Positions 4,793-58,183 of a DNA stretch of 64,000 nucleotides are shown piece by piece (within the stretch, counting starts at the first letter, position 1; each line of letters opens with the position of its first letter). Origin of the DNA: Lepraria neglecta (lineage: Eukaryota > Ascomycota > Lecanoromycetes > Lecanorales > Stereocaulaceae); contig CM065646.1 in NCBI GenBank assembly GCA_033220425.1, positions 1,371,501-1,435,500 on the forward strand, given 5' to 3'. The position numbers were made by a program, and so were the translations under genes. A model generated the notes under the pieces. The model did no database searches, was not told the DNA's origin, and saw only the letters and a program-made list of their open reading frames with translations.

Positions 4793-4914
4793 TATAGCCC
4801 GGAAAGATATGGGATATCCTATAGAATATCCCAAGGGTTGGGTATAGGATTCCGGTATGGGATGGGATTAAGAGAGCCAATATCCCATACCATCCCATAT
4901 CTTTCCGGGCTATA
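4793..4914. mobile_element. Palindromic MITE, 122 bp with TA flanks
   Basis: The left arm TATAGCCCGGAAAGATATGG and the exact reverse complement at 4893-4914 bound a short noncoding core rich in GGGAT/ATCCC inverted motifs. If the terminal TA pairs are the target duplication, the element is 4795-4912 with ~20-bp inverted repeats, consistent with a Tc1/mariner-type MITE. It sits directly against the 3' end of the Gypsy LTR at 4792. Confidence 0.7.
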
Positions 4915-5880
4915 ATAGATATCTAGATATTTTTAATATAGGACTTTAAGTATATATAGAAGGAGGCTAGCCTATAAGTAGATAAGAGTCTTTAGGAAGA
5001 GGATTATATTATAGATATTAAAGAGTAGAGTATATTAGTAGAGAGGTAGATTATAGAGGATAAAATAGTATATCTAAATATTATTCTAATAGGAGAAGAA
5101 CCTAAGGACTAGGCTACTAAGGATACTATAGAGGGGATAGAGGATAGATTAATAAAGTATAAAGCTTAGACGAGAGGAAGTCTAATAGAATTAAGCTATT
5201 AGTAATCGAATATATAGCTATTAAATATATAATATAAGAATAATTATCGTATTATCTTTTAAAATCGTCTAGCTCGGATAATACTACCTATAGATTAATT
5301 CTAGATAAGATATCTAACTTAAATATATCTACTATAGCGGAGGATATATTCGAACTATCTAACTCGGATAACTTCCTATCTACTAATATTATTAATATAC
5401 TACCTAAGTATATATATTTTATATTCTAGAATAAATGTATAATAGTAGCGTTAGTCTACAAAAGTAACTTTTAATACTAATATTGTAATTAGCTAGTATA
5501 GCAATTTAAGGTTATAGATACTACTATCGGTAACCTTAAATTACTAATTTGGCCGATTTCTTAGTCCGTAATCGATATAGGATGTAGACCCTAATCGCTA
5601 TACGGCCTACTAATAGCGCAAAACTAGCTGTAACGCTAATGATATAATCTTTTGGGAAAGCGCGATGGCGCCTAGGGCCCCCGAAGTAGCTCGCGCTTTG
5701 GCCCGGGGCTACTAGGGCCGGGTTCGATTTCGCCGACGTGAATGGAGGCGTTTAACTATATAGAGGATACTTTATAGATAAGTAGAATAACCTATTATAT
5801 TAATAACTAAGAGATTTCAGAAAGCTTTATCTTATAAGTACTTCTATACCAATCTATTACTTCAAAGATCGATCCTACCT
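4915..5880. other. TA-rich repeat wreckage, no gene
   Basis: The part up to about 5560 has the same TA-rich, CpA-poor composition as the Gypsy element and no open frame, so it is probably another RIP-damaged transposon. The stretch at 5640-5750 is suddenly GC-rich (GCGCGATGGCGCCTAGGGCC). It contains GGGTTCGA, but I cannot fold it into a tRNA. Confidence 0.5.
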
Positions 5881-5953
5881 ATCTTACTTTCCAAGAATAT
5901 TAGCTAACAACCAACCATTTCTAATATAATTCTTGACAAGTGTCCTATGCCAC

Positions 5954-7357
5954 TCACAAGCCCTCCAAAACCCCCTGCAACACACCCTCCGTAAAGACCC
6001 ACAACAGCGACGAGTCATGCGTATGCCACGCGGCGCCCGTATACCACGTTTCCCTTGTTCCTTGCAACATATACAAGCTCTTGTAGAAACCCCCTTCAAT
6101 CGCCTCCTTCGGCACCGTGAGTTCAAAGGGCGTATGGCTCGCAAAGACTGCGAATTCCGGCTCCGCGGTAGAGTTGAATATTCTAGCGGCATTGATTCGA
6201 TTGACACTCGCAATGATATCGGCCTTCACCTGCTCATCAGGCAGTGCGTTCGCACTGCCGAATTTCACATCGTGCAAGCCCGGAACGCGTGTAGGTGTGA
6301 TAGAGTACGCGGCTGGAAGGATGGGGAGATTGTACTGCGTAGCTGCGCCGATGTTGTTGACAGTGGTTAAGTCCGGGATTTTTGTACCACGTAGCAATCC
6401 CGTGTAGTAAGCACTGTTCTGAAATTGTAAAAAGAGACTTGTTTCCTCAGTGCTGAGATCGAAGCCTTCGAGATTGTGCAACTTGGGCGGGATAGTCAGG
6501 ATGAGTTTCTTCGCCAGGATGAGTTTCACGCCTTGAGGAGTCTGAACGAGGACTTTGACACAGCCACCGCTGCTGCTGGCACTTCTATCAACGGCTAAGA
6601 CATGGCTCGTTAGCAAGACATCTTGGCCCAGCACGGCGAGAGCCTTGACGTAAATCTCGCTGTTGTCTTGATCGAGCGTAGTTAAGAAGCCGTTTTGCAC
6701 GCCCTGCAAGACGGACAGTCCAAAGTTCTTGAACACGTAGAGAGTCAGCTGTGAAAGGAGATCACCGAGTCCCTGTGCGAATTGGAAGAGGAATCCAACC
6801 ATATCTTGCAGGGCGTATTTCGTTACGAAATCTCCAAAGGGGAGTAGCAGGTCCGCTGGCACGGAATCGGGGAGAACGAAGCCGGTCTCGAGATAGGGAT
6901 ATTGCGCCAGTTGAGCTGCGTATGCCGCAAGAGCAGCTGTGGGATCATTCGGAGTGTACCCGGCGACGATTTTTCCGGTTTGGAAATCCACATAGGTAGA
7001 TGTTTCACCAGGGGAGCTAAGAACAGCTTTTGTAAGCGGGATGTTGAATCTAGCAAAGTAGTTGTTGACGACACTAATATTGTGGAATAACACAACGCCG
7101 TAGTCGATGGTCTCGTTGGTGTTTGGGTCAGTGTAGGTGTTGGTGTGCCCGCCTAGTCGATCTTGAGCTTCGATGACGACCACAGATATTCCCTTGTCGT
7201 GGAGGCTGATTGCGCTGTATGTACCTGTAGAGCCTCCACCGATGATGCAGACATCACGCGTGACGATTGAAGAGGGAGCATAACCATCTGTGTTGATAGT
7301 AGGCAGGGTGGTTGCAAGTACAGCGAGAGAGGTGGCGAGAAAGAGCGTGAACAGCAT
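5954..7357 (-). CDS. Secreted FAD-dependent amine-oxidase-like oxidoreductase
   Basis: A single-exon frame of about 467 residues. The chosen ATG (7355-7357) starts with a typical secretion signal (MLFTLFLATSLAVLATT); the frame extends 31 codons upstream without a signal, so the downstream Met is preferred. After the signal comes a Rossmann FAD-binding motif VCIIGGGSTGTYSAISL, an acidic strand end (VVIEAQDRLGGHTNTY), and at the C-terminus a second flavin segment (YTGAAWHTHDSSLLW). The architecture is that of NAD(P)-binding Rossmann/FAD oxidases such as the beta-cyclopiazonate-dehydrogenase-like fungal family. That family suggests small-molecule oxidation; the substrate is unknown. No frame breaks are seen, so it is likely functional despite lying beside RIP-damaged repeats. 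Confidence 0.85.
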   Translation of the reverse strand: MLFTLFLATSLAVLATTLPTINTDGYAPSSIVTRDVCIIGGGSTGTYSAISLHDKGISVVVIEAQDRLGGHTNTYTDPNTNETIDYGVVLFHNISVVNNYFARFNIPLTKAVLSSPGETSTYVDFQTGKIVAGYTPNDPTAALAAYAAQLAQYPYLETGFVLPDSVPADLLLPFGDFVTKYALQDMVGFLFQFAQGLGDLLSQLTLYVFKNFGLSVLQGVQNGFLTTLDQDNSEIYVKALAVLGQDVLLTSHVLAVDRSASSSGGCVKVLVQTPQGVKLILAKKLILTIPPKLHNLEGFDLSTEETSLFLQFQNSAYYTGLLRGTKIPDLTTVNNIGAATQYNLPILPAAYSITPTRVPGLHDVKFGSANALPDEQVKADIIASVNRINAARIFNSTAEPEFAVFASHTPFELTVPKEAIEGGFYKSLYMLQGTRETWYTGAAWHTHDSSLLWVFTEGVLQGVLEGL

Positions 7358-16482: not shown

Positions 16483-16829
16483 TCATGCTGACGGAGTTGT
16501 GAACTTAACGGGTCCGAGCAATTTCTTAAGCGCTTCGATATGAGTGTTCAACTCAAACATGCCCAGAGACCACCATTCTCTTTTTCCCCATTCCTTGACT
16601 GGGAGCCTCGCTTCTTCGAAAATGGCTTTCACATACAGCAACGGGACGCTGTATCCTCTCGTTTCATCACCGAACAATCTTTGGATCAAAGAGATCTCTG
16701 TGCAGCCCAACTGATGTGCCATGGAGTCGAACTTCAACGTTGGGTTGTCATGCTCTTGCTGCTCAAGCCGCTGTCGACGCCGTAACGCAAAATCCTCGCT
16801 GGTAACCTCCTTGCCGTTTCTCGATACCG
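16483..16829 (-). pseudogene. Heme-thiolate (chloro)peroxidase, 3' part, cut by transposon
   Basis: C-terminal ~115 residues of a peroxidase-family-2 (chloroperoxidase/HTP) protein. The features are the family's late helices: NGKEVTSEDFALRRRQRL, MAHQLGCTEISLIQRLFG, GYSVPLLYVKAIFEEARLP. The coding sequence stops abruptly at 16,830, exactly where an 8-bp duplication and the end of a 15.2-kb transposon begin. The N-terminal part lies at 32,061-32,526 on the same strand. Deleting the element and one duplication joins the two pieces in one frame (EDLITGL|IAVSRNGK). Normal family length is about 250-270 residues, and the two pieces together fit that. Confidence 0.88.
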
Positions 16830-16837
16830 CTATCAAG
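16830..16837. repeat. Target-site duplication CTATCAAG, left copy
   Basis: Eight bases immediately outside the left inverted repeat, identical to 32,053-32,060 immediately outside the right one. Eight-base duplications are characteristic of hAT transposition. Confidence 0.92.
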
Positions 16838-16856
16838 CAGCATTGGCAATGGTATA
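16838..16856 (+). repeat. Left hAT terminal inverted repeat
   Basis: CAGCATTGGCAATGGTATA, exact reverse complement of 32,034-32,052. It is followed by subterminal CGGTATAT/GGTATGG motifs. Confidence 0.92.
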
Positions 16857-16998
16857 TACGGTATGGTATCCACCTGATACCATACCAACCGGCTAAATAT
16901 CACCTCATACCAGCGGTTTTTGAGGCGGTACGGTATATACCGCCAAGATACCGTATATACCACGGTATATGCGGTATGCCCCCAGATTTTTGGTATTT
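16851..16998. repeat. Left subterminal GGTAT-motif cluster
   Basis: GGTAT/ATACC motifs in both orientations are packed just inside the left end (GGTATATACGGTATGG, GATACCATACC, CGGTATATACCG, CCACGGTATATGCGG). The right end (31,905-32,040) has the same kind of cluster. Such subterminal repeats are known transposase-binding sites in hAT elements; the binding role here is inferred. Confidence 0.7.
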
Positions 16999-17013
16999 TG
17001 GTACGGTGGTAGC

Positions 17014-18200
17014 TCAAAATTCATCCTCCCTTCCTCTCATATCTCTATTATCAGGTCTATACCTCCTCTGCTCGTCGACTACCTTATGTAGCTCCTCCTT
17101 CGTAAAGAACCCTGCTTTGAGCCATGATTTCAGGCATTCCAACGCCTTAATAGTATCTGCTTGTAGCCTCTATCGCCCCTGATCAATCGTCTTCTTTGTA
17201 GTTGAGAACACCCGCTCTACCTCCGATGACATAGCTGGTATGGAGAGGATATCAATTGCCATCCTTGTAAGCAATGGGAACTGCGCCCTCTGGGGAGACT
17301 GGAGCCACTACTCCCGAGCTGTGATTGGCCCAATATTGGTAGGCGTATCATTGGCCAAGTACCTCTCCAGCTCGTCCCTTGTGTGATCCTCGAAAGCGGT
17401 CTCTCCAGCGAGCCATTGAAGGTATGTATTACTCGAATCGAAAGTAGGTGTAGGGCGCTCAACTATTCCAGTGTTGCTGCGGTATTGATTCCTCCATAAG
17501 GCGAATAGCCTGTGCTTTGCGGCCTTTTTATCTTTTTCCGCCTATGATCGAAACACCGTCTATTTAAGTTTAGGATTGAGGATGACGGCGGCGATAGAGG
17601 CTGAAGCTCGCTCGTGTTTATTGAAGTACTTCAGTAGCTTAGTATAGCCTGTATCCAGACATCCAATCATGAACTCCTGATCTTTATATGTATCAAGCGC
17701 TTTTTCGAACTGTAGGATGAGGAACTCTATAGACGGTAAAAAGTGTTCGATAGTAGTATCCCTCCCTTCTGTCGCCTTGGTAGCGTCATAGAATGATACC
17801 AGGATATCGCGTATCTGCTTAAGGATCCTCCAATCAGCCGCCGAGAGCTCGTCGGCTCGGAGTTCTTCTTCTTTAGAACAGAATTCTTGTAGCGGCGCTT
17901 TAATCTTATTGATTGCCTAGTCAATCATAATATACCAGGAGTTCCAGCGTGTACTATTGTCGCGGCGTGGTAGGAGGCCGCCTACACCAGGTTGAAGCTT
18001 GCGAAAACGTTGTTTCCGTTGAGGGGTAAGTGTAATAAAGACAATGATATTATAAAGCTTGCCCAGGGGCCCTAATTTCCTCCACTTGCTTAGTTTATCC
18101 GATGAGGGGAAACGGAGAGGCTATTCTCCTTCGAGTTGTTCTAGGTAGTCTAGAAATCCGAGCTTCGCCCGCAAAGAATTGAAGCAAGTTTACCACCCCT
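17014..18200 (-). pseudogene. hAT transposase, C-terminal half
   Basis: The minus strand reads the second half of a hAT transposase. A KLGPLGKLYN segment and DNSTRWNSWY lead into the RNase-H-like core, then AVILNPKLK, LERYLANDT and the hAT dimerisation block (IPAMSSEVERVFSTTKKTID, ALECLKSWLKAGFF), ending at a TGA at 17,014. About half a dozen internal TAG/TAA codons sit where CAG/CAA or TGG would be expected, as RIP produces. The homologous N-terminal half is 12.3 kb away at 30,525-31,765 on the same strand; neither half alone can work. Confidence 0.85.
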
Positions 18201-18219
18201 CTTATTCAGTCATACACTA

Positions 18220-18900
18220 TGACACGGTTACAGAGTTCTACTGGCGGATAGCTTGCGAGTTTTCCGAAGGATAGAGGATACGGGGTCAACAAGAAGGGAG
18301 AAGAAGCTGGTTTGTTTGTAGGTAAGGCTTTCAGGGTCGAGGAATCGACTAGTACACTTGTTTCTTACGTATAAATTGCAGAGTTGCTGCTGGCGGAGGA
18401 CGTGGTTCTTCTGAATGGTTCTCAAGGTGTTGAATGGTTTGGCAGCGCTGTGGCTTGCCAGGGGGTTACTAGGCTTAAAGCAACTGGTTGAGCATGTATG
18501 GCGACATACCCTGGATCGTGTATCCGGCCGTTGCTACCGTTATGATACGAGGTTTTCCTGTATGTCTATAATAGTAGTATTGGTAGTGAAAGTTGTTGAT
18601 CGTTCTATAGAATGGATGAGTATGATAAGTATACTTATAGGGCTGAATACTAACTAAGCTAAAGTCTGCGGTGTTGACCAAATCCAGCCCTGTATCAATA
18701 TAGAAGGTTTCGCCCATCACCTAGAACATCGTGTTCAACTTGCTACTTGCTCTTTCATATCTATTTAGATATAGCTAGTTAGACTTCTATTATTTAATAT
18801 ACTCTTATAATAAAGACTGCCTACGCCTAATAGCACGTGACTCCTCTTCCATAGAAGACTAATATATATTACGATCTGGTGCGATCAACGGGTCGTAACA
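18220..18900 (+). mobile_element. LTR of a degraded retrotransposon
   Basis: Begins at TGACACGGTTAC and ends ATCAACGGGTCGTAACA, with the terminus and preceding block shared with the Gypsy LTR at 4792. TA-rich leader-like sequence follows. The start lies at the point where hAT transposase homology stops (18,200-18,223), so this LTR forms the left edge of the material inserted into the hAT element. The exact start is inferred. Confidence 0.5.
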
Positions 18901-19281
18901 ATTAAGGGGAATATTAAGATAATATATATACAGTTTACGGGCTCAAAACCCCTTATATCGTCCGTTTATAGCTTCTAGTTAGCTTACCGTACTCTATTCT
19001 CTACTTCTAAGATCTATTTTTCGGCAAGGAATCTGCTCGTAGACGGCGTTTTACACCTTTCCTTTCTACTCTAGAACTTAATCTTAACTCAGATCTAATT
19101 CTACTAAATCGATACTAATTCATAAATCTATAGGTAGGTATATATAGAAGCTGACGAAGAAGAAAAGCTATCGAGTAAGGATAAAGAGAAACCCGGCGAG
19201 TGGTATAAATAGACTAAGTCGTAGTTTATTGAAGGGTTTACGACGCAACCAAAGGAGAACGGCGAAGCGACCGATAGCCAG
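18901..19281 (+). mobile_element. Retrotransposon leader / gag-start remnant
   Basis: Directly follows the LTR terminus. The plus strand has a broken frame with charged, gag-like composition (ADEEEKLSSKDKEKPGEW, PKENGEATDSQLKGQ) and RIP-type stops. No further retrotransposon domain follows, so the element is truncated here. Confidence 0.35.
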
Positions 19282-19850
19282 CTAAAGGGGCAACGAACTA
19301 CGCTCAAAATCAAGCCCGAAGCCCAAAGACCTCACAAGATTAACCAAATTTTCACTAGAGACCGCAAGAGCGAGCTCATTTTCTTTTCTGTCAACTTGCC
19401 TCGAAAGATTACGGAGGAGGCGTCTGGTCAAGACTTCGGACCCTGCCCGAATACAGCTCCAGCAAGCACTGCCCCACGACAGCCCTGCGCAAACCCCAAT
19501 CCAGGCACACACGGCCCAGGCACAGCTTACGGCTAAAAGCCCAGTTTCCAACGGCAAACCGATGACTTGTCAATGCAGAACTAACATCTATGGAGACTGG
19601 TATTGCTATGATTGCATGAATCAGAATGAAGCACGGGTGCTGAATCGGGGCGATAATCGGGAGGTAGGTTTTGTTGCGGACGCATAGGAATAAGAATTCG
19701 AGGACTGGGACTAGACAGGTTGTTGTAACTAATGATCCGAGAACGAGGAGGGTGAGGGAGGCGTGTCCGATACCCGGGTGCGTGGAGAAGCCGTAGATTA
19801 GGCATGAGAACATGCCAATAGTGGGGATGATGCCGTTGTGGTGTCATCGG
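19282..19850 (-). pseudogene. Possible membrane-protein remnant
   Basis: A minus-strand frame (19,409-19,813) carries at least two strong hydrophobic helices (HASLTLLVLGSLVTTTCLVP, HPCFILIHAIIAIPVSI). An overlapping frame (19,282-19,557) carries another hydrophobic stretch and a basic tail. A frame change is needed to join them and no convincing intron was found. It is unrecognised, and lies just downstream of the SAT4-type gene on the same strand. Confidence 0.3.
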
Positions 19851-20131
19851 CTGGCGGGCGTTATGTGTCTTTGTTGTGATGAGACGAGTATCCTTTGAGG
19901 TTTCAGGTAGTGAGGGCAGAGACTTAGGGAGTGCAAGAAATTATTTTAAAGCAATAGAGCTTTTGAAAACGATTGTTGTATTTGACCGTGAACACTAAAA
20001 TGTTGCATTGTAAATTTCAAAAAGGGAGAGCAGTCCAGTAAAAACCGTCCGTGATCTTTGCTTGAACATTTCGAAAAAGAAACATGTATCAAAGATTGCC
20101 GGCCTCATCCTTTCTGACTGCACTAGCCGAG

Positions 20132-21646
20132 CTAGTATCTGCCAGACCCTCGTGTCACGTCCACCTTGGTGGATTTGCGAATCCTAGTGTCCTCGAGAGG
20201 GGAAACATCAATATTCTCCGGCTCCGCTTGACATTCGCTCCAAGCATCCTGTGGGCCTGACCATGGCTTTTGCATCTCGTATTGTATTTGGCCATTGTCT
20301 TGAGGGTCTCCGTAAGGTGGACGGAGGTTGGAGGTACTGCCTAATTTTTCGTGGTGGCTCGTAGATGTGGACCTAGTAAAGCTTCTGAGACCCTTGCGTG
20401 ACTTTACGAGGAAAGAAGAGACAGGCCCCTTGAGCTGACCGAAGACTGCGGCTGTGGTGGGCATGCAGCATACGAGTATACCTGCAGTCATCTCGACGAT
20501 GCTAGGCCAGTAAGCGACGCATCAGTCACAACGATTCTGTACTTACGTAGTAAGCCACGTGGGGATAACGGCCCACGTGTTGTCCGTAGTTAGAGTCAAC
20601 GCAACCCGATAATACAAGCCAAGGATACTAGCAATGCATGCGCTGCACGCTTGTTAGCTTTCTGCCAGAATGCATGAGAGAGTAAAGCTTACATGAACCC
20701 GGTCAGGAACATTGCTGACACGCCAATTTTCCTACGAAGGGGTAGTTGTAGTGACCAGACCGCAGGAAGAGGAAGTATGACCAGGTACAAGTCGCTAAAC
20801 ACACTCACAGCTCCAATTGTTATTGATAAAGGTTGCGATTTCAAGCACTGCGGCGATGCTAGGGCCGTTATGTAGGCGATCTGACTATGGCCATTCCTAG
20901 GTGAACATAGAGCGAGGAAGGCGACCATAGAAGCAAAGTAAAAAAGTCCAGTGATGATCATGCCAACAAAGGCCAAATATCTAAGCCATCGGAGCAGACC
21001 GAAGATTTCAAGGTAGAGAACAAATAGAGAGAGTTTTATGAACCATAGACAAGGTCCGTAAATCGACTCGACGATAAGTGACAGCTGTTCGGGAATTATC
21101 AGTGACTAGCCAATAGAAAATCTCGTTACTTCTGTCGAAATTTACCAGTAATTGTTCTTTCGAAAAATCTCGGATGGTAATGTCCCACTGATGCAACCCA
21201 TACGCACCTCCACTAACGGCTGATGAAATCTTAGTTCAGAGCTCCAAGTAGAAGCTGTGATAAAACTTACTTGCGATTGAAATACTGATAAAACTGATAG
21301 CCGCGAGCTAAGCAATCGTGTCAGCTTGTCTAACATTGAAGACTAGACCAGCCTTACCAGGCCAAGGGTACACGTCACTGCATTCACAGCATTAGCATGA
21401 ATCGTGTTTGTGGTTAAAATGGCAACGGTCGTAGTACTTACAATCGTCCCATGTTTTCTTCTTCTTGATGATCGCTTTGGCATATAAACGTAACGCAGCG
21501 AAGATAAGGATTAGAGGCAGACAGGTACTAGCCGCGATGTAAAGCTTCGGTGCTCTTGACGGAGGGTGAGCAAAGTCTGAGTGCTGCCCAGGTGGCGGAG
21601 GGGAGAGAGGCTCATCCAGAAAGCTGGAGGGAATCGATGAAGCCAT
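20132..21646 (-). CDS. SAT4 / fungal rhodopsin-domain integral membrane protein
   Basis: A multi-exon minus-strand gene. Exon 1 starts at the ATG 21,644-21,646, has a proline-rich head (DEPLSPPPPGQHSDF) and a first membrane helix (YIAASTCLPLILIFAALRLY) followed by the KKKTWDD signature of this family. Later exons give a loop with YGLHQWDI, then KLSLFVLYLEIFGLLRWLRY, GMIITGLFYFASMVAFLALC, a CLKSQPLSI-type loop, LYLVILPLPAVWSLQLPLRR and MFLTGFMACIASILGLYY. A long charged cytoplasmic tail ends at 20,132. Seven membrane segments and this order match DUF/PF20684 (SAT4) proteins, whose function is generally unknown. No stops were found inside predicted exons, so it may be functional although it lies inside the hAT-bounded unit. 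Confidence 0.75.
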
Positions 21647-21687
21647 TGTTGTATGGTGTGAATTGAATCTCAGCAACGGGCAAGAAA

Positions 21688-22120
21688 TTAAGGAACTGCT
21701 GGGATCTTAATTGTTGCCCCTTCGCCCCAGGTAGTAAAGATCGGCTCTCCGGGGATTTTGAGTTCAGCTGCGACATTAGGTGCTAATGCAAGTGTGATGC
21801 AATGATTGACAGCCCTGCGGCACAGGTGCCTCAAAATCGATTGGCAGGCAGCCACGCGGCAACTGCGTTGTAGCGGTACTTTAGGTGCCTTTCCAAGTAA
21901 ATCAGAGTTTCCAACTACCATGTGGTCAAAGAACCCATCATTAACAACGTCTGTCATACTTTAGCCAGGAATCGCTTATATTAACTCCGATGACGGTCTG
22001 GCGAGTGTGACCATGATCGCTCTGACCAGCACGCTGGACTAGGGGGGATGGTTTTGCTTGACCAAGGAGATCATCTTTCACTAGAAGCCTAGACCTTGGC
22101 ATTTTTCGTCTGCAAGCCCT
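21688..22120. other. Short intergenic stretch before the fold-back element
   Basis: Minus-strand frames exist but have no recognisable content. One of them runs into the fold-back element, which argues against it being a gene. Confidence 0.35.
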
Positions 22121-23085
22121 TACCGTCGATTTCAAAACCATTGGCGCGAGAAAATCAGAATTTTGGGGGGCGCTCCGGGGGTAGGGAAGGCGCGCGAAAT
22201 GGGCCAAAATTTTGGAAAACCAGCTGTATAGCAACGACTAACACTGCTCCGGGGGCCTAGTAAACGGGGGATTAAAGCACCTTTCTAGTTCTATAAGGCC
22301 GCAAGCTTTGTATATATAGTATAGCGTTTGGGGGGCTATCGCAAAGCGGGGTCATTCTTGAGCTCCCGGTCTTCGAAAATTTTTACGAATTCGCTGAAGT
22401 TTATAAAAACCAGCTGTACAGCGACAATTAACGCTGCTCTGGGGGCCTAATGAACGGGGAATTAACGGGCTCGTCCAGCTCTATTGGGCTATCAATTTTG
22501 CATATATAGTATAGCGCTCTGGGGCTGTCGCAAAGCAGGGTAAATTCGAATTTCCGGCGTTCAGATTTTTTTTGTTGATTCGCGCTAGTAGAATATAGGG
22601 CTGAAAAGTAAACAAAAAAAATCCGATTTTTAACCATATCTGCAATGGCTGTCCAGCGCTATACTATTTATATAAAGTTGATAGGCCAATAGAGCTGGAC
22701 GATTCCGTTAATTCCCCGTTTACTAGGCCCCAGGAGCAGTGTTGGTCATCGATATATAGGCGATTGAAGTTCTGCGATTTTCGGCGTAAATTCTCGAAAT
22801 CTGGGAGCTCAAAACTGGGGCCCCTTTGCGATAACCCCTCAACGCTGCGCTGTATATATAAAGTTTATAGCCTAATAAAGCTGGATAGGCGCTTTATTTC
22901 TCCGTTTACTGTAATTTCTACGCAGCGTTAGTTGTCGCTGTACAGCTGGTTTTCTAAAAATTTGGCGTATTTCGTGGCCCATTTCGCGCGCCTTCCCTAC
23001 CCCCGGACCTCCCCCTCCCCCCAAAATTTTCTTTTCCAGCTGTTCGGCCCTTAGCGTCGCGCGAATGGTTCTGAAATCTACGGTA
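22121..23085. mobile_element. Fold-back transposon, 965 bp, noncoding
   Basis: The ends are inverted: TACCGTCGATTTCAAAACCA on the left and the complement of TACCGTAGATTTCAGAACCA on the right, with TA as a possible target duplication. The inverted similarity continues inward through GGTAGGGAAGGCGCGCGAAA and across nearly the whole element. Each arm holds two direct copies of a ~180-bp unit (CCAGCTGTACAGCGACAA, GGGGCCTAGTAAACGGGG, ATATATAGTATAGCG, TCGCAAAG). Units begin near 22,220 and 22,410 on the left arm, and their inverted counterparts end near 22,761 and 22,950 on the right arm. The centre is an inverted poly-A/poly-T pair. No coding capacity is seen, so it would need a transposase in trans. 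Confidence 0.8.
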
Positions 23086-23550
23086 GCGAGCGGCATCCGC
23101 TGCCCGATTGGAAAATAGAGAATAATCCTTCCAGTCCTTCGAGCATGCATTTTAAGCGAGGGTTGTGTTGCATGAATGATCCTACAAAATCTTTCTCCAC
23201 CTTATTGCATACTTGGATTCGCATGATATGAAACAAAGCAACTTGTTGACCACTCTGAGGGTGGGTGACTCCGAAGCTGAATGGAGACAAAGTCATGTCA
23301 ATGCCAATGATGGTCAAGTTACTGTCAGACGTTCCTCAGCTGGCTGTGTCGATCGCTTGAAACCGGATAGCAGCTGCAGGGCAATGTCGTTGACCCGCTG
23401 CGCTGGAATTTGAGGACACCTAATTGGAGCGAAGCTATGTTTCGTAGCAGTGGAAATATTTCGTTTGAGGTCCTGGCTCATGCGTCTCGCAGAACTAGCG
23501 AGTAATATCTCGTGTACAAGCTCAAAAGCCCGATACCCCCTCGGCATCAT
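23086..23550 (-). pseudogene. Unrecognised protein-coding remnant
   Basis: Two adjacent minus-strand frames read coherent protein-like sequence: 23,314-23,550 (GYRAFELVHEILLASSARRM, FAPIRCPQIPAQRVNDIALQ), and from about 23,317 in another frame (LTIIGIDMTLSPFSFGVTHP, VALFHIMRIQVCNKVEKDFV). The second has no ATG at its head. The frame shift between them, and the fold-back element directly at its 3' side, suggest a truncated gene. I do not recognise the family. Confidence 0.35.
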
Positions 23551-24002
23551 TTTACGGCACGGCGAAGAGTGCTACGCCGCTCCCAAAATCTTTGCCTTTC
23601 TGTTTAGTGAATCAACTATGTTTGTCGTTGCCTTACTGGATCTTCCACAAGCGGAAAAGCCACCTACGTGGCTCATCGTTGTGTGTGGTTGTCATTGATA
23701 CACAGAAAATGAATTCTCCGCCAATCATTTGATAAGAGCGCATATTGGTGTTTGTACCACCATAACTAGAACAGCTATTCCAAGCCTACTAAGATCATAG
23801 GGTGTGGCAGCAGGCGCAGGGAGAGGGCACGCTAAAGACTTCTCAGGATCTCTGGCCATGGCACAGCTGCCTTGGCAGCTCAGCCGGGCTGAATAGCATA
23901 TGACTATACGTGGCAGAAGTTTTCCGGCTCAATGGTCAATCCTTAGCAACCCCTTCTTGAACGCTTGACTCTGAGATATAGACAATTCTGCGTGAAAGTG
24001 TT

Positions 24003-25814
24003 ATGGCGCTTCCCTACCTTGGTATACCCCATCTTGCCATAATGTTGTATCTCCCACTGTTCGTCCTAAGTCTTCTTTGTAAGCTTTTCTTCTGGATCAA
24101 GTTCTTGTACCTACAGCGAGCGACCTTTTCACTGATTCCAGGACCGAAATGGGCTTCTTGGACCAGGCTCTGGCTGGTGAAAACGCTTGCCTCCGGGGAA
24201 TCTGCCAGCATATTCGTTGACGTGAACAAACGCTATGGTAGGAGGTCGCCTTCTTAACGTTCAATTTACTGACTCGAGTAGGAGCTCTTGCAAGGATAGG
24301 GCCTAACCACCTACTTACCAATGATCCAATTCTTACGAGGAGAATTCTGGCGGCTCGGTCGGGGTACACTCGGGGTCCATGGTTTGATTCAATCAGGATT
24401 GATCCTCACACCCCCAACATCGTTTCGGAGAGAGACGAGAAGAGCCACAATCGCCTCAGATACAAGCTGTCAGCTAGCGTAAGCCATTTCTTGAAGGGCT
24501 TTTAAAGGTTGCTAACATGAAGGTCACAGTATAATAGCAAGACAATAAACGCCATGGAAGCTGTGATCGACGATCAACTCCTCGACTGGCTTCATCGAGT
24601 CGATTCGTCTTGGATTTCAGAACCAGGGAAATCCCGATCATTCGATATTGGCAAGAGGATCCAGTTTCTGACTGTCGATATTATCACTAAGATCTGCCTT
24701 GGTACAGCTCTTGGCTGCGTCGCCAGCGACAGCGACAAACATGATTTTTTGGCAACAGTCCAGCGGGGGAACTCAGTCTGCCAGCATTTTTCTGTGATCC
24801 TGGAGTTAAACAGCCTGATTTATTACCTGACCAAGTTACCTTTCCTGGGATCTCTTATTGTACCCAAGGCCACTGACACATCCGGTGTCGGTCGCATCAT
24901 GGGCGTAGGTTCATTCTACGATGGCCAGGAGGAGCTAGACTAACAGGGTCGTAGATTGTCCAGGCTGCTGTGAAAGGACGAGACACTACCGGCACCATTG
25001 GCAAAAATGATATGCTAAGCTCGTACCTAGAGAAGGGTGTGCCCAAACACCAGGTTGACGCCGAATTGGTCATTGCATTGTATGTAATGCCGGACTGTGT
25101 CTCCTCACGGCCGTCTCTAAACAAACACAGGGTTGCAGGTTCTGATACTACGTCCACGGCTGTTCAGAGCACTCTGCTTGCAATAATTCTGAACCCCAGA
25201 GTATACCAGACCCTGAAATCTGAAATTCAGGCTGCTGTTGTAGCAAAAAAAGTAACATGTCCAATTCGAGATTCGGAAGCGAAGCAGCTTCATTACCTGC
25301 AGGCGTGTGTCCTTGAAGGCCTGCGAAAGTTTCCGCCACTAAGCCAGCTCCGTGAGCGTATGGTTCCCCCGGAGGGAGACGTTATCAAAGGTTACCGTAT
25401 CCCAGGAGGCACGTTCATCGGCCTCAACGCGTGGGGTACGCAGCTCGATGATGTCTATGGGGATGATCCAGAAGTATTTCGACCTGAAAGATGGTTGACA
25501 ACGGACAAAGAGCGATTAAAAGCAATGCACCAAACACTCGAGTTGGTATTCGGCCATGGTTCCACCAAATGTCTTGGGATGCCAATGGCCATGATGGAAT
25601 TGGATAAGATGATATTCGAGGTTGGTTTTTCGAATTGACACGTTGAAGCTCGTGATAGCTGATGAGACGCACGGTCTAGTTGCTTCGACATTTCGATATC
25701 ACTATCGCCAATCCTTACAAGCCCTGGTCTAGCGTCTGCTATGGTATCTTCTTTCAGAAAGACTTCAATGTCCATCTGACTCGAGCGAGATGTGACGGAA
25801 TTCCACCCTCTTAA
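24003..25814 (+). CDS. Cytochrome P450, pisatin-demethylase / benzoate-hydroxylase type
   Basis: Six exons (24003-24237, 24282-24478, 24530-24904, 24964-25079, 25131-25620, 25680-25814) give 515 residues without a stop. An N-terminal membrane anchor (LYLPLFVLSLLCKLFFWIKF) is followed by the proline hinge (LIPGPKWASWTRLW), the WFDSIRIDPHTPNIVSERDE region typical of this clade, the I-helix oxygen-binding motif AGSDTTS, the K-helix ExxR (EGLRKFPP), PERW (FRPERWL) and the heme loop FGHGSTKCLG with the cysteine ligand. The enzyme should be an ER-bound monooxygenase; the substrate is unknown. The last intron has a weak donor (GTTGGT), but splicing there restores a normal P450 C-terminus. It lies inside the hAT-bounded unit, in tandem with a second P450. 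Confidence 0.88.
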
Positions 25815-26445
25815 GATTCAGCAGCCAATAAGGTACCCAATAGTTCGGATTTGTTAGGATTTTGTGGTATTGTTCATGCCAATCCGCGGTGCTTTCTCAC
25901 GTCAGACTCTGATTCAGGCAACTTTGTATTTTGGACACAATCGTTTAAGAGTAAATGCCTCGGTAATACCAGCTTAGAAAGTGAAGCGAAAGCATGCATT
26001 GATGTCTGACACCCACGGTAGCGGTATGGAGAATTGAATATGCATAACTGATCACCATGCATGAGCTGATACAAGAATTGCCATGCGAAGTAGATCAATT
26101 TCCGAATTGGGAGTCAAGCGTCGGGGCTGTGTCGGGGGAAGCTGCAGCTGCCAGCTGAGCCGTCATTGCATCATTTGACAGCGATCGCTCATCTACTGGA
26201 TAAGCCTGCAGCAAGCTGAGTCGTCCCACATCGACACTTTTGCTCATCATTGACTTGGTCAGAAGGACCTCAGGTTTGCCTGAAGTTTTTACGCTAGTGG
26301 AGGGTGAACTAGCTCTTTGATTTCATCTATCTAAAACAATGTTACCGGTACACGCTCCAATCCACTTAATTCACTGGCCCGGTCGAGAACTATTGAGTAG
26401 TCATGCCATTTCTTTCTCTTATCGCCCTCACTGTCGTATAAGAAT
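25815..26445. other. Intergenic region between the two P450 genes
   Basis: About 630 bp with no supported gene. It must hold the terminator of the first and the promoter of the second P450. Repeated CAGCTGCAG/CAGCTGAG-type motifs lie around 26,140-26,215; no known operator is recognised. Confidence 0.4.
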
Positions 26446-28168
26446 ATGGCTATTGCAATCTCGCAGAGTACTTTGCTGGTGTTCCTGGCTATCGGTATAG
26501 TAACTTACATTCTCCTCACTCGTATGTTGGGGACCATGCAGGATCCAAGAGAGCCACCTCCAGTGTCAGGGTCCATCCCATACATTGGACATGTCATTGG
26601 CCTCATGCGAAGCAAGTTCAATTACTATGTCCAGTTGAGGTAATTTACATCTCTAGCAGGCCCTATAGCTTAGACGCGTTAAATGATTGCTTACTCTTCA
26701 CGTAGTCACCAGAGCTCATTGCCCATCTTTACCATGACAATGCCGGGTCAGAAAATGTACATCGTCACTACGCCGGACCTTATACAAGCCATTCAAAAGC
26801 AACCAAAAGCTCTTGCTTTCCCTCCCATCGAAGCTAAGTTCGCGTCGAAGATCTGCGGCTCCACTGAAGACGCACATAAGATCCTGATGAAGAATGTCAA
26901 CGGCGATGACGGAGACTGGGGACTGTCTATGGAAGCCTACGCGGGCATGCGAGCTGCACTTTCGGCTGGTCCAGGTCTCGACGACATGAATCGTGTCATG
27001 ATCCAGAATATTGCGGCCTCTCTTGACAGCTTGAAACCCTCCCCGGGTTCGCGTACAAAGATTGAGCTTGCGAAGTGGCTTCGGCAAAGTGTGACAGCGG
27101 CAACGACCAACTCAGTCTATGGCCCCCACAACCCTTTCAAGGACTTGGCGGTGGCAGATGCCTTTTGGTAGGCTCTTCGGGTATCGCTTGCTGAGATGCT
27201 TGAAATGCTAATGCTACATCAGGCAATTTGAGAGCAATCTCATGGCCCTCCTCGTCGGCATCCTTCCATCTCTCACAGCACATAAAGGATTAGCCGGCCG
27301 TGCCAAAGTCGTCAAAGCCTTTGAACACTATTTTCGCACCGACGGCCACAAACAAGCCTCGATCCTGATGAAGAATCGATACGAGACAAGCGCGAAGAAC
27401 GGGGTTTCTGTGGAAGACATTGCGCGCTTCGAGGTTGGAGGGGCAGTTGCAATTCTTGTCAACACCGCACCCGCCGTGTTCTGGATGTTGCTCCTCGCGT
27501 ACTCCCATCCAGGCCTGGTCGATGAGCTTCGGAGGGATATCGGTGAGATGATGACCGAGAAAACCAGCAATGGCGACACGATCCGGAGCCTTGATATTAC
27601 CAGCCTCAAAACAAGTTGTCCCCTACTCACTTCCACGTTCCAGGAAGTTCTCCGTTATCGTTCGATGGGCACTTCGGTCCGCCAGGTAATGGAAGACACC
27701 ATCTTGGACAGTAAATGGCTTCTGAAGAAAGACTGCATGATTCAGATGCCAAGTCGAGTCATCCACAAAGACAAATCCATTTGGGGGTCCGATGTAGATA
27801 AGTTCAACCCGAGACGCTTCATGAAAGACGAACCTCAGAAGACACAGAGCGGGAGACGACCTAATGCAACAGCTTTCAGGGCCTTCGGAGGCGGCACGAC
27901 CCTATGTCCAGGTCGACATTTTGCGACCAATGAGATTCTTGCTGTGGTGACAATGTTCATTATGCGCTACGATATGAAGCCCACTGCCGGCGAATGGTCT
28001 CTACCGACCACGCAGAACACGAACGTTGCAACAGTGGTTATGGAGCCGGATACAGACGTTGAAGTCGAACTTTCCACGAGGGATGGATTTGAAGAGGGGC
28101 AATGGGCGTTCGATCTGAAAGATTCGGGGATGGTGTTTGCCGTGGTAGCTGAGGATCGTGCTGAATAG
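26446..28168 (+). CDS. Cytochrome P450, CYP7/CYP8-like fungal family
   Basis: Three exons (26446-26639, 26706-27167, 27223-28168) give 533 residues with no stop. The N-terminal anchor (STLLVFLAIGIVTYILLTRM) and PPPVSGSIPYIGHVIGLM hinge are followed by a helical body. The I-helix region (VAILVNTAPAVFWMLLLAYS) lacks the usual AGxDTT threonine, as in the CYP7/CYP8 (prostacyclin-synthase/sterol 12-alpha-hydroxylase-like) group. ExxR is EVLR, the PERF-like motif is NPRRF, and the heme loop is FGGGTTLCPGRHFA. Fungal members are usually annotated as 12-alpha-hydroxylase-like with unknown substrates. Intact coding after 12 kb of nested repeats suggests recent arrival or continued selection. Confidence 0.87.
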
Positions 28169-28396
28169 TCGGCCAACAGATAGGGTTTTTCGTGTAGAGT
28201 GCATTCTGATACCGAGCAAGACTACCTGACCAGCTAAGGCATAGTGGCGAAGAGGTCAAAATATGATTACCGATGCCACTGCATGCCTATTTGCCTTTCA
28301 CCGCCCAATTAGTGCTCTGAGTGATTCTCGGTGTCGCTGCTTCTGTTGTTGGGCTTGGTGGTCTTAGGCCTGCTAGTCTTGGATACTCTGGTCTTC

Positions 28397-28575
28397 TGTT
28401 GTATGCTATTAGCCATTTTCCTTTATCACCATTTCTTTGTCAACATTCTAGCGTCTTCTACTGTTTGACACTCCATCATGTATATTAGGAGCCTCATTCC
28501 ATAGATTCTGGCTCCTCAGGCTGTTCACATTCATAGATCTCATTGATACATTGCAACGCTTACACCATAGCGACA
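28397..28575. mobile_element. Solo LTR of the Copia element, 179 bp, TSD TCTTC
   Basis: TGTTGTATGC...CATAGCGACA, identical to the 3' LTR of the Copia element at 61,322-61,500 except for one base (TATTAG versus TATTTG near position 17). It is flanked by TCTTC at 28,392-28,396 and 28,576-28,580, a 5-bp target duplication. The internal region has been lost, presumably by LTR-LTR recombination. Confidence 0.93.
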
Positions 28576-28580
28576 TCTTC

Positions 28581-29600
28581 TTACCACCGTAGATGGCCAT
28601 AGCAGGCCTAGCAAACCGCCTGATACCGCCACGGGCCTTGAGAGTTGATAATAGCCGCTCGACTCGAACATCTGTGGACTCGGAAAATGCTCTGGATAGG
28701 ACATCAAGGGGCGTCCCTCCAAATTCAATTGGCGCATTATATTACACACCATGATCGACTAGTAGTTGTAGAACACCCAGTACTTGCTATGGCAGCTTCA
28801 AGTGATGGGTGCATCTCATAATTCCAATGATCTGTTGCCATGTAGAGTCTTTGAAGTCGGATTTCCAATTCACACTAGCGCCTTTTCTTAGGAGCAGAGA
28901 AACCATCTCCGTCGAAAATAGCATTCGATCACTAATGCCGTGCTCATGGCCATGTGTAGCATGGTAAAGCAGTTCCGAAGGTAAATCATGATGTGAATCG
29001 AGTAATAACCCATTTTAATTTCCCTCTACATATAAAACCAGGTTTTCTGAAGCCGTGAAAGACAAGAACGACGGATGTTCTTCTACGGAAGTTTCTTCGT
29101 AAACCTGGTTAGCCCAATGTGCGCTCCCCACAATTTCTTGTTCCATGATTGTGTGGTCCATTTCATCTAGCAATTTGGCTTGTGGCCTGTCTCTATCGCG
29201 TCCAAGCCTTCGCACATAAAACCAGCCTTCCTGAACCAGTTGCCGCCATTGTCCAATTTCACTATTTGTGAATGTCCTCGTACCGACATGAAAGTCCTTT
29301 AGTAGGCTGACATGCAAGCTAAGTAGGGCTCTGAACTAACCCAAACAATCTCCAATGGATACACAGCACAGTCCCGAGGCCGCTGAAGGACAATCTTTCT
29401 GCTTATCTAACCGCTGAGTATTGGCAGTTGCGTCAACCAGTGCTATGATGTGATCGGACGTTCTATGGTATCCTATGTCCTCGCTGTCCGCATATCTATA
29501 CATGGTCATGTGGTCCTGGGGGATACTATTTGTGGAGACAAGGAATCCATCGATGCATACTGAATGTTCTGACACAATCTGATCAAAGGGTTAGTCGTGG
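28581..29600 (-). pseudogene. Degraded NLR-like gene: alpha/beta-hydrolase tail and ankyrin region
   Basis: Minus-strand pieces in several frames. Near 29,575 a segment (IVSEHSVCIDGFLV, then DHMTMYRYADSEDIGYHRTS) resembles the end of the alpha/beta-hydrolase domain at the N-terminus of many fungal NLR-like proteins (IVSxxSAVL...DHRxMCRF), a match from memory. Near 29,317 a second block reads FTNSEIGQWRQLVQEGWFYV. From about 28,960 to 28,590 ankyrin-like sequence appears (VSLLLRKGASVNWKSDF, VLQLLVDHGV, TPLDVLSRAFSE), with stops. The central NACHT/NB-ARC domain is missing. The solo Copia LTR interrupts its 3' end. It is nonfunctional. Confidence 0.5.
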
Positions 29601-29834
29601 ATGGGGGATTTAGGTCAGAGGAGTGCGGAGGTGGAAGGTGGCTTGTATATACAAAGGACGGAGAACATTGGGAGCATACCACGCCAATTCCTGTGGGAAT
29701 CTCCTCCTCCCAATGATAATTACGCGGGTCAGATTGTGCAGGAGACGCAAAGTCAGCAAGCTCGACTTCGTCCTCGGTTAAGTATATCTTATTCGATATC
29801 TCTTCTTCGGCGTTGATTTCGTAATTTTCTTAAA

Positions 29835-30525
29835 TACCGTCGATTGCAAAACCATTGGCAATTCAAGGGGACAAAAATCTGCCCCCAGCTCTGTCGAGGC
29901 TCGCCTGGGCCCTGCCGCTTTAGCAAGCGCGCCGGGTGAGCAGGGATGGTGCCGCACCTGATCTGGGTGATGCATCACCCCTTCGAAGTGATGCACACTC
30001 TGCTCACCTACTAACTCACCCAACCCCCCACGTTCGAACATAGAGATGCGCGCTCGCTCTTGCATAGTCCGCTCCAGGTGGGCTCCAGAAATGGCCGCTG
30101 AAATAGGGTATAAAGAGGAGCGGTGTCCCCCCCTTGTTCCCTCTTCTGGTTCTCCTCTCTAAGAAAGGTCGTAACTCTTATATCCACCTACCACGCTCAT
30201 TCCTAACCATTCTGTTTGCTCCTTATGACTATAGGTCGGCAAGAAGTACCGCTAGAAGAGCTACAGGAGAAAGCTATCGCTAATGGCTATAAGTAGGGAG
30301 TATACCGGGCCGAGGATGGCAAGAGGGATAGCACAACATATATACCGAAGACCCTTAAAGACTAGAACGGCGCTTTAAAACGCTATAAAAAGTGAGTATA
30401 AACGCCGGTTTAATCCCTCTATATTGCCTTTACTAACTATATTAGTAGATAGGTAGCTCTTATCAAGAAACACAAATCTGATATAGGAGAGATAGTATCC
30501 GATAAATAGGCCGCCGTTGTCAGGA
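29835..30525 (+). mobile_element. End of another DNA transposon with start of its ORF
   Basis: Starts TACCGTCGATTGCAAAACCA, matching the terminal sequence of the fold-back element (22,121). A GC-rich leader with TATA box and pyrimidine stretch follows. An ATG at 30,225 opens a frame (VPLEELQEKAIANGY, YIPKTLKD-NGALKRYKK) with TAG at Trp/Gln positions, a likely intron (GTGAGT at ~30,391 to TAG, with CTAAC branch), and a second coding piece (ALIKKHKSDIGEIVSDK). The frame ends where hAT transposase homology starts. The protein is unrecognised; an N-terminus of a DUF3435/Crypton-type recombinase is possible but unproven. No right-hand terminus was found. Confidence 0.45.
30109..30117 (+). promoter_or_regulatory. 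TATA box of the truncated transposon ORF
   Basis: TATAAAGAG lies 108 bp before the ATG at 30,225, followed by a C/T-rich stretch (CCCCCCCTTGTTCCCTCTTC) typical of fungal transcription starts. Confidence 0.45.
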
Positions 30526-31765
30526 TGATATGACCGTTACACCGGAGTCGTCTTTATAAAGGGTCAAATGCGGTACCTTCTCCATTAAGACTTTGAGCTA
30601 ATACTTCAACACAAGTATCATTGGAGTAGGCGTTGTCAAGTATCAGATATCCGAGCCGAGCTTTTATCCTGAAGTCCTCCAGCACATCTAGTAGAATAGA
30701 CGCCTGATTCTCGCCCGAGTATACACCTTGAATCTCTCTTAAACCAATCGTCAATGCTTGGAGCCGTTGTTCTTCATTAGTAAAGTGAGCGGTGGTACCG
30801 AGAAGGCCTAAATGATTCGGTGACGTCCAAAGATCGCATATGAGGTGGATATCTGATATAGCTGACTGTAGGATATGATATACTCGATGTTTCCCTTCCT
30901 CGTATAGAGTCATTATCCTGGCCCGGATTGTATTATAACTGCGAGGTAATACCTCATTGGCCGCTGGATTGATATAATCCAGAAAAATCCGAAAATCCTC
31001 GTGTTCCACTTGCAGAAAAGGGATATCGTTAACGATAGTCCATCTGATATAGAGATACTCCAAAAGGTCCTTATTGATCATCGCTCCTAGAAGGGTACAC
31101 CTCCTCTCTGCTTGAGCTGCTTGAGCTGCTTGTACCGTCTCCTCAGCTCGACTGAAAACAGCCTTCAGATCTGTTTCTTCTTTCTCCCGTTTCAAGGCTT
31201 GCGCGCTTGCTGAAGGATCGCATTGATGTTCCTTTTTGAGGTGTTCCATAGGCACCTTTATACCCCCGTTTTTGGCCCACCTCCGAGAGTAATAGTTGCA
31301 CTTCCATTTTTGAACCCCATTATCGAGGATAACAGTCATCTCTTGATATAGCCAGGATATAAGAGGACGAGCACTCCGAATCTACTCAGAAACACTGCTT
31401 ATCTGCGATTACTATGCCGTTATTCTATCTTCATCTTGAACGGAAGGTTCAATATCTATATCAGGTGCCCAGTTATCTTTATTATCTATAGGCTCGCTAT
31501 AGCTTTCGGAGGTAGGAATAGAGGCAAGTAGTCTGTTATTTTGAGACAATTGAGAGACGATTTTCTGCTTCTTAAGGGGACGTTCTAGAGGTAGCTGAGA
31601 CTGGTAGACTGGAGGGCGTCGTTCATTGCGGTAGCGGGTTTTATATAGGAGGTGAAGGCTGGATCTCGGGCTCTGAGCTCGCTCTGCCTGGCCGTTGGTA
31701 ATGGTAAAGGGATTGATAGTAGATATAGGAGGGTAGAGGAGCTCTAATTCATCATCTGAAGCCAT
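30525..31765 (-). pseudogene. hAT transposase, N-terminal half
   Basis: The ATG at 31,763-31,765 starts MASDDELELLYPP, followed by a low-complexity basic region and, after three RIP-type stops around 31,370-31,415, by SWLYQEMTVILDNGVQKWKC. A BED-type zinc finger follows, in which the second cysteine of CNYC reads CNYY. The open frame 30,554-31,339 then carries the RNase-H-like first catalytic block (HLICDLWTSPNHLGLLGTTA) and GYLILDNAYSND. Homology continues through RRLRCNGHII to about 30,525 and stops at the neighbouring transposon. The C-terminal half is at 17,014-18,200. Confidence 0.85.
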
Positions 31766-31904
31766 AGTAGATAGGTAGTTAGAGTAGGGGGATGCGATAA
31801 TGCTGGAAATAATTTCTACTATGTACATTGATTACTAAGCAATCTGACCAATCGGAGGTTGTCTTTCCTCGCAGCCTTATAGGGCTGGCTTCTGAATAGC
31901 CTCA

Positions 31905-32033
31905 TGGTATACCGCTGGTATTACCACAGTATGGCCCTCCTCATACCATACCAACCGCCTACCGACTGAGTTGAAACCGTACCATTTCTTGGCGATATAT
32001 ACGGTATATACCAGCGGTGTAGCGGTGGGTAGG
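31905..32033. repeat. Right subterminal GGTAT-motif cluster
   Basis: Packed GGTAT/ATACC motifs in both orientations (GGTATACCGCTGGTATTACC, CATACCATACCAACCG, ACGGTATATACCAGCGG) mirror those inside the left end of the unit at 16,851-16,998. Confidence 0.7.
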
Positions 32034-32052
32034 TATACCATTGCCAATGCTG
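32034..32052 (-). repeat. Right hAT terminal inverted repeat
   Basis: TATACCATTGCCAATGCTG, exact reverse complement of 16,838-16,856. Confidence 0.92.
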
Positions 32053-32060
32053 CTATCAAG
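32053..32060. repeat. Target-site duplication CTATCAAG, right copy
   Basis: Identical to 16,830-16,837; directly abuts the right inverted repeat. Confidence 0.92.
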
Positions 32061-32526
32061 CCAGTAATGAGGTCTTCCTATTGCGTGATATTATCTCCCT
32101 GGCCAATGTCTCGACGAGTCAACGAAACATCGTACTCCACAGCGCCCGGAAGAGCAAGTTGATCGAGGTTGATAACTGGAATTCCCTTGGAGTCTTTCTG
32201 GCCTGGAAGTCTCACTCCAAACTGCCTGAACATGGCGTCAATTGGGTTGCGAATGAGGGGCCACCAGCCGGTCGGTGGAGTCTCGTGGTGTTGGACATAA
32301 CATCCGTAGGCGAATCCCCATTTGAGCATGTTACTAAGGCCTATCACGCCCAACGCTGCATAGAGGTCTGCGTTTCGAATGTTGCGGCCATCACGGGAAT
32401 GTGGCCGTGGTTTGCGAGGGAATTGACAAGAGGGCAAGGACTACGGACGTCGGTCTTGGAGGGAGGGCAATAGTCCCCTTTCTGAAGCGGTGGGGTCCCT
32501 TCCTGGGCGTCTGAAATGGCAGACAT
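32061..32526 (-). pseudogene. Heme-thiolate (chloro)peroxidase, 5' part
   Basis: N-terminal ~155 residues of a peroxidase-family-2 protein. It begins at the ATG 32,524-32,526 and carries the heme-ligand motif SPCPLVNSLANHGHIP, in which the PCP cysteine is the proximal thiolate. It continues through RDGRNIRNADLYAALGVIG, the WWPLIRNPIDAMFRQFG region, and the distal acid-base motif as VEYD (usually EHD). Two lesions precede the transposon: a one-base deletion near 32,394 between HIP and RDGRN, and a CAG-to-TAG stop about 20 bp before the insertion site. The rest of the gene is at 16,483-16,829. Confidence 0.88.
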
Positions 32527-33521
32527 CCCGTTTGGCTTGTGTTGAACGCTGCAGAACGCCTTGACGAGGGTCCAACAGACTTGAGCTGGATTTAAATTGG
32601 TGATTTTTCGTGGGATGTCTTATTTTAAGGGAATGGGGGTCTTCTGGCCGACACTCGAGGTTCTCCCAAGTCTGAACACATTTCTATTATTGCGTGGCCC
32701 TACAAAGACTCTCGTGTCACTTGGTGCTCTCGATAGTGCCGCCTGTCGTTATCGCAGCTAGATAGAAAATAAACGCTCTTGCTACCAAATTGGTCTCGGC
32801 GATATTCGCAGAGTTCAGCATCGTCCTGAGACTGGTTGAACGCTGTGCTGAAAGGAGGGGAAAGTTGAGGATCTGGCCAGGCGTATCTCGTTAGGCTTGG
32901 TCAGGGATCTTTAGGCGACAAAGTAGCCTTTTGGGGTTGCGTCTCCCGGGGCTACCTTGCACGCTTAGGCACACTTAGACGCGATACCCGAACCGTCATG
33001 CGCCAATGATACGCCAACGGTAGCACCATTGACGCCACAACGCTTCACCAGCTAAACATCGCCAAATACGGACAGCGACCCAAGCGACCCCTCTCTTCCA
33101 TCGTTTCGCGTTGCTTTGTCTGGCTGCTAGTGAGCGATTGCCTGCCAGGTCTAGCATGTTCATCTCCTCCTCCCTTTGAACCGGACCGTACCGTGGCTGG
33201 CTGATAGCTGGTCTGAAGACCTTTCCAGACGCATCGAGATTCGAGAATCAAGCATGGACCGGTTACGCTTTCCACTTTCAAGTGAAGGCGTCTCGAACCG
33301 CCAAAACCAAGCTGACCTGAGACTCCACTCAAATAAAATCACAGATTATGAAGTTTATGAATCCACACGACACCCCAATCCAATCCCTCATGCTGATGAA
33401 CCCTTTCTTGTGCAATTGATGAGCTTTGGTCGAAATTCTTGACTTGTTTTAAGTCTGCCGCTCTGTATTCCTCATTCCAGCTCTTCCCTTTTCGTTCGAG
33501 AACCAAGCCGAGAACTGCATC
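32527..33521. other. Intergenic; no supported gene
   Basis: Frames on both strands at 33,045-33,442 overlap each other and show no domain. The region holds the promoters of the peroxidase (minus) and the Ppo-like gene (plus). Confidence 0.4.
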
Positions 33522-58004: not shown

Positions 58005-58183
58005 TGTTGTATGCTATTTGCCATTTTCCTTTATCACCATTTCTTTGTCAACATTCTAGCGTCTTCTACTGTTTGACACTCCATCATGTATATTAGGAGC
58101 CTTATTCCATAGATCCTGGCTCCTCAGGCTGTTCACATTCATAGATCTCATTGATACATTGCAACGCTTACACCATAGCGACA
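58005..58183 (+). repeat. Copia 5' LTR
   Basis: Starts TGTTGTATGC and ends CATAGCGACA, 179 bp; same family as the solo LTR at 28,397. Confidence 0.95.

Follow-up and report, generated by a model that had tools for sequence, protein, structure and literature searches.

How did two cytochrome P450 genes and a SAT4-type membrane protein gene come to lie between the ends of a hAT transposon? The question is raised by a 15.2-kb unit in the lichen fungus Lepraria neglecta, within a 64,000-nucleotide stretch that we call the window (C1:1371501-1435500; positions below are those of the window). The first-pass annotation had proposed that a hAT element carried these genes into a peroxidase gene, and had named as the alternative that cargo was inserted into a hAT copy already in place. 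Based on this one genome (42.02 Mb, 11 contigs) and on protein databases, we lean towards a history in which the hAT came first and break repair later split it where it lay.

A single hAT transposase gene in two parts

The transposase gene of the element lies in two pieces at opposite ends of the unit. The left part (16838..18153, minus strand) holds the C-terminal half: it matches Dimer_Tnp_hAT (PF05699, E 8.1e-18) and aligns by tblastn to P0001, the nearest homologue found (60% identical to this half), which itself carries PF05699. The right part (30518..32052, minus strand) matches no Pfam family and is assigned to the N-terminal half by homology to other hAT transposases. Residues 1-166 of P0001 align to the right part and residues 169-525 to the left part (18153-17077), in the same orientation; the final ~10 residues of the right-part match extend into the adjoining gene fragment X, so that about a dozen are absent where the gene is split. 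Both halves can be read without a frameshift. At the left break lie 71 bp (18154..18224), into which the transposase frame runs on to ~18186 and of which the rest may be hAT remnant or repair filler; if 18186 is taken as the end of the left part, the total for both parts is 2884 bp. As the halves are complementary, share an orientation and do not overlap, they point to one hAT copy and not two: a single ~2.9-kb element, by alignment, is interrupted by ~12.3 kb. Their complementarity and lack of overlap led us to disfavour two hAT copies flanking the cargo in the manner of a macrotransposon.

Six premature TAG codons in the left half and four premature stops in the right make ten, all of them TAG or TAA and none TGA, the single TGA in the left half being read as the natural stop of the gene. 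When four homologues were compared, 8 of the 10 stops fell at W or Q positions of P0001 or P0002; of the other two, the stop at 31411 stands opposite S in P0002 and opposite Q in P0004, and that at 31384 opposite S, A or R. This RIP-like pattern fits repeat-induced point mutation (RIP). Since RIP acts on repeats, the contrast between the mutated hAT halves and the cargo genes is suggestive only. A search of the genome found no second DNA copy of either half beyond its own place, and protein relatives of the transposase elsewhere in the genome are at most 53% identical. A possible intact relative lies at C4:874864-877335 (L038), where an open 823-aa hAT transposase frame is 44-47% identical to that of the window.

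The two ends entered one peroxidase gene together

The unit is bounded by perfect 19-bp terminal inverted repeats (TIRs) at 16838..16856 (plus strand) and 32034..32052 (minus strand), which are reverse complements of one another at 19/19 positions. Abutting them are the two target-site duplications (TSDs), both CTATCAAG, at 16830..16837 and 32053..32060. On the plus strand of the window CTATCAAG occurs at these two places only, starting at 16830 and 32053 and each time adjoining its TIR, and its reverse complement is found in the window also at 12940 and 15890. Assuming equal base frequencies, the chance of such a 27-base coincidence in a 64-kb window is ~1e-7. Genome-wide, the exact 19-mer was listed at these two places only; three more places matched with up to two mismatches, against none for a reversed control pattern, and a relaxed TIR scan at two mismatches gave 9 further places versus 7 for its control, no excess.

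Assignment to the hAT superfamily rests on an 8-bp TSD on both sides, on short TIRs and on the hAT dimerisation domain (PF05699) in the left half. A 784-bp non-autonomous relative on contig C2, with matching ends (CAGCATTCCCAATGGTATA) and an 8-bp duplication of its own (GTCGCGAA on either side), confirms the family type. Scanning 13 loci (11 hAT matches, L004 and L005) for TIRs and TSDs gave four matches in three loci, of which the L005 match fits the hAT family; the others were one in L047 and two in L048.

Flanking the TSDs are the two parts of a Peroxidase_2 gene, both on the minus strand and both recognised by Pfam matches and a rejoined frame. For the C-terminal part (16483..16829), the match at 16483-16836 covers profile positions 107-184 (E 2e-6, above the curated cut-off). 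For the N-terminal part (32061..32619), the match at 32344-32619 covers positions 3-28 (E 1.4e-9, above the curated cut-off), and that at 32078-32440 covers positions 28-92 (E 3e-4) at 21.7 bits, below the curated cut-off of 26.9. When the flanks are joined, a single frame passes through the insertion junction, bearing out the earlier description of one interrupted gene whose frame rejoins. The gene is otherwise damaged: a TAG stands seven codons ahead of the junction and its two N-terminal profile matches are split between two frames, which makes it a pseudogene.

The inverted repeats and their identical flanks are thus as first described, and they establish that the two ends inserted together. 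About the arrival time of the interior they say nothing, and to that extent the claim of entry as one insertion stands for the ends and does not extend to what lies between them. A short insertion split later and a 15-kb transposition predict the same TIRs and TSD, so the ends cannot tell them apart.

The interior resembles ordinary chromosome

Both edges of the interior lie in broken repeats. On the left, repeat A (18225..18697, plus strand) is a multi-copy repeat of which the right-hand piece is present and the left is cut off, with a RIP-like composition by RIP index. It has six other copies at 85-89% identity, five of which were shown running on leftwards in similar sequence, and a 500-bp query from upstream of one of them found matches near all six, counting the one that it came from, some of these matches being partial. 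On the right, X (29855..30517, plus strand) is the start of a multi-copy gene that ends abruptly at 30517, fused at its own start to the tip of a foldback-element terminal repeat (29834..29859, plus strand) that was recognised by repeat matches. The copy of X on contig C8 continues past the point at which X breaks in the window. A query from past this break found 11 places, its own included, and the continuation is mostly DUF3435: 8 of the 11 overlap PF11917 (DUF3435) hits on the same strand. X as present here matched no Pfam family in any of three frames, and no PF11917 match was listed within the window. Judged by its continuation elsewhere, X is probably the beginning of a captain-type recombinase gene. 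Its direction of reading, away from the P450 genes, speaks against their being its cargo. Members of the multi-copy DUF3435 gene family lie on contigs C8, C4, C7, C2 and C6, and 36 PF11917 matches were listed in the genome, 35 of them above the cut-off.

No terminal repeats matching across the ends of the block were seen. Direct repeats at its edges occur at chance level, where 5-bp pairs number 7 (7.9 expected) and 6-bp pairs number 3 (about 2 expected by our own arithmetic). The 6-bp repeat TATGAC that flanks 18224-30528 might mark a cleanly nested transposon and its duplication, a reading rejected on the same count (3 pairs versus about 2 expected). Local alignment between the two block junctions was equalled by 50 of 500 shuffles. 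The interior thus reads as a ragged chromosomal block with both edges in broken repeats.

From left to right, repeat A is followed by a strongly RIP-like fragment of another repeat (18901..19434, plus strand; 87% identical to C7:4075997) and by a putative SAT4-type or fungal-rhodopsin membrane protein gene with introns (20131..21645, minus strand). The SAT4-type gene announced by the annotation is indeed present between the ends, as its exon at 20689-21105 matches Fung_rhodopsin (PF20684, E 3.8e-23); the surrounding stretch (19435-22115) has no DNA match in the genome outside its own place. A foldback element of a multi-copy family comes next (22116..23085), with nested inverted arms and, in the repeat search, many partial genome matches at 68-89% identity.

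The two P450 genes lie on the plus strand and, as had been claimed, have intact models. P450-1 (24003..25814) has six exons and a predicted product of 518 aa, and P450-2 (26446..28168) has three exons and a predicted product of 533 aa. Both match p450 (PF00067) and have homologues, in the case of P450-2 to its last exon. The two models are complete, with GT-AG introns and a single terminal stop each, their splice sites having been picked by eye without transcripts. The best P450-1 match elsewhere in the genome is 43% identical, among 83 of 145 candidates scored. Three named species were common to the best 120 of 252 homologues of P450-1 and the best 120 of 1068 homologues of the last exon of P450-2, and in all three the pair is apparently on the same contig, judging by names, locus numbers and contig sizes: Chrysothrix (loci 007187 and 007188, both on contigs of 91,378), Xylaria multiplex (g3177 and g3174, both on contigs of 356,387) and Tricladium (both on contigs of 588,761). 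The two P450 genes have therefore probably been neighbours for a long time and arrived together. We take their named relatives to be lichen-forming fungi, Helotiales and Xylariales among others. With the hAT halves and the SAT4 stretch each at a single place, only a distant match to P450-1 and the P450 pair together in three fungi, the block looks like ordinary chromosome. NCBIfam profiles gave only matches far below cut-off.

Towards its right edge the block is mosaic. Up to ~28,090, P450-2 and its paralogue on contig C5 are 0.53-0.60 identical at third codon positions and 0.52-0.55 in introns. Past that point, identity is 0.96 over the last 78 coding bases (0.85 at their 26 third positions), 0.94 over the next 229 non-coding bases, and 92-97% on to 29,765. 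This tract (28091..29765), which comprises the 3' end of the P450-2 paralogue and downstream DNA, represents an ectopic conversion or duplication, given the sharp switch from the identity of old paralogues to 92-97%. Interruptions differ between the two copies (C5 loci L007, L008 and L049); one of them is a solo-LTR-like insertion of 179 bp (28397..28575; LTR, long terminal repeat) that begins with TG, ends with CA, has a duplicated TCTTC at its borders and is missing from the C5 copy.

Splitting in place and its rivals

In the history that we favour, a ~2.9-kb hAT inserted into a chloroperoxidase-type gene and created the 8-bp duplication, as the TIRs, the TSD and the rejoining frame show. 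Its transposase gene gained RIP-like stop mutations, as the stop pattern indicates, and would have been split, still at this site, by a 12.3-kb chromosomal block comprising the SAT4-type gene, the P450 pair and transposon debris. The block probably entered during double-strand break repair, by end joining or template switching, at the cost of ~40 bp of hAT sequence. On this view the hAT did not bring the block, which would be a passenger at the locus.

Several points weigh against this history. The TIRs and TSDs are without mutation over 54 bp while the body of the hAT is mutated, and the loss of only ~40 bp at the split could also result from transposition-related repair. The 71 bp at 18154-18224 have no homology assignment. 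Nor was a donor scar found, as no place among the 11 where X continues is close to one of the 11 that the query upstream of repeat A found. No strain or relative with a short hAT or an empty peroxidase gene was seen, within the one genome covered. In the search with the interior, 39 of 154 candidates were scored and the place of the query itself was missing from the list, which means that this search alone is no proof of copy absence; copy counts from the genome searches are lower bounds throughout.

Next in order is the carrier reading, in which the block entered the hAT elsewhere and the whole 15.2-kb composite, mobilised by a transposase acting in trans, moved a conserved two-P450 block and the SAT4-type gene into the peroxidase gene. 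What the annotation invoked is present: hAT bounds, an 8-bp duplication, a peroxidase gene broken by the insertion, and the P450 genes. The ends are intact and the TSD is perfect. The family also includes a non-autonomous member, the 784-bp C2 element with its own duplication, and a transposase in trans could come from the open 823-aa frame on C4, though this is 44-47% identical. Size alone is no bar to movement, since an Ac/Ds macrotransposon of maize is described as mobilising up to 100 kb (PMC3260210). The element's own transposase, however, is split and stop-bearing, no donor site was seen, and the searches of this genome turned up no second copy of either hAT half or of the SAT4 stretch. 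The same cargo at several sites, as would mark a gene-carrying hAT, was thus not found in this genome. For carriage, a hAT at another site would have had to be interrupted in this way before the 15-kb unit transposed, which adds an event that none of the observations calls for; with the copy-number prediction unmet in this genome, we prefer splitting in place and consider carriage unlikely. Nothing observed shows that the P450 block jumped with the hAT ends. The nested insertion offered earlier as the alternative fits better than carriage, given the split transposase and the ragged block edges, except that the block is without transposon ends of its own.

Less probable again is capture by the hAT itself, whereby gap repair after excision restored the ends and template switching filled the middle with chromosomal DNA. 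The mosaic interior, the broken repeats at its edges and the sharp identity switch against C5 at ~28,090 are in keeping with such filling, and maize Ds elements with gene-fragment filler offer a parallel (PMC3260210). A copied source should nevertheless persist, yet the SAT4 stretch is found at a single place and P450-1 has no close relative. Gap-repair capture also tends to lose much of the element interior, whereas only ~40 bp are missing here.

Stepwise nesting, with repeat A, the foldback element, X and others inserting singly and the host genes arriving as cargo, for example of a Starship-type DUF3435 element, seems improbable: the interior is rich in repeats and 8 of the 11 X-continuation places overlap PF11917, but repeat A and X both break off where they meet the hAT, so that neither looks like a clean insertion, and the window holds no listed PF11917 match. 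An assembly error that falsely joined a P450 locus into a hAT copy is the least credible explanation, for despite the repeats at both block edges it would need two false joins at one point, the halves being complementary and no other DNA copy having been found.

Comparison with known systems

Fungal hATs with captured host sequence are already in print. Those of Pseudocercospora fijiensis (~9.5 kb, 20-bp TIR, 8-bp TSD, RIP damage; PMC6710886) and Pyrenophora tritici-repentis (about 5.6 kb; PMC3538342) carry histone H3 sequences acquired by transduplication. The present unit shares with them host sequence between fungal hAT ends, and differs from these multi-copy elements, as there described, in that no second copy was found, in its 15.2-kb size, in holding several genes and in its interrupted transposase. 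ToxhAT, a 14-kb TIR-bounded fungal composite of transposons with several genes, whose movement has been observed (PMC6737239, PMC12506042), is likewise a multi-gene unit of similar size. Its 74-bp TIRs and TA duplication are described as Tc1/mariner-like, and its authors propose the name ToxTA (PMC12506042); the unit studied here instead has 19-bp TIRs, an 8-bp duplication and a hAT transposase, and no movement was seen. In maize, the compound Ds-like element Ds-l4-483 and the Ac/Ds macrotransposons trap foreign DNA between hAT ends in the same way (PMC3260210), although these are plant elements and the mobility reported for a macrotransposon has no counterpart here. Starships place a DUF3435 captain first at the 5' edge, whereas the window has only a broken gene start, from a family that matches DUF3435 elsewhere but itself without a Pfam match, with the P450 genes upstream of it.

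If the block did move with the hAT, ordinary cut-and-paste transposons, like Starships, would have to be counted among the carriers of metabolic gene blocks in fungi. A hAT split in place would still make the locus a clear case of chromosomal genes with intact reading frames inside a dead transposon, and a caution that matched TIRs and duplications alone are no proof of cargo transport.

Other repeats in the window

The first 6 kb of the window (1-6000) are AT-rich (GC 0.344) and strongly RIP-like, with a composite RIP index of 1.21. Further copies of the 179-bp LTR-like repeat lie at 58005-58183 (98%) and 61319-61500 (99%), spaced like the LTR pair of one ~3.5-kb retrotransposon. The open reading frame between them (59085-59780) looks gag-pol-like.

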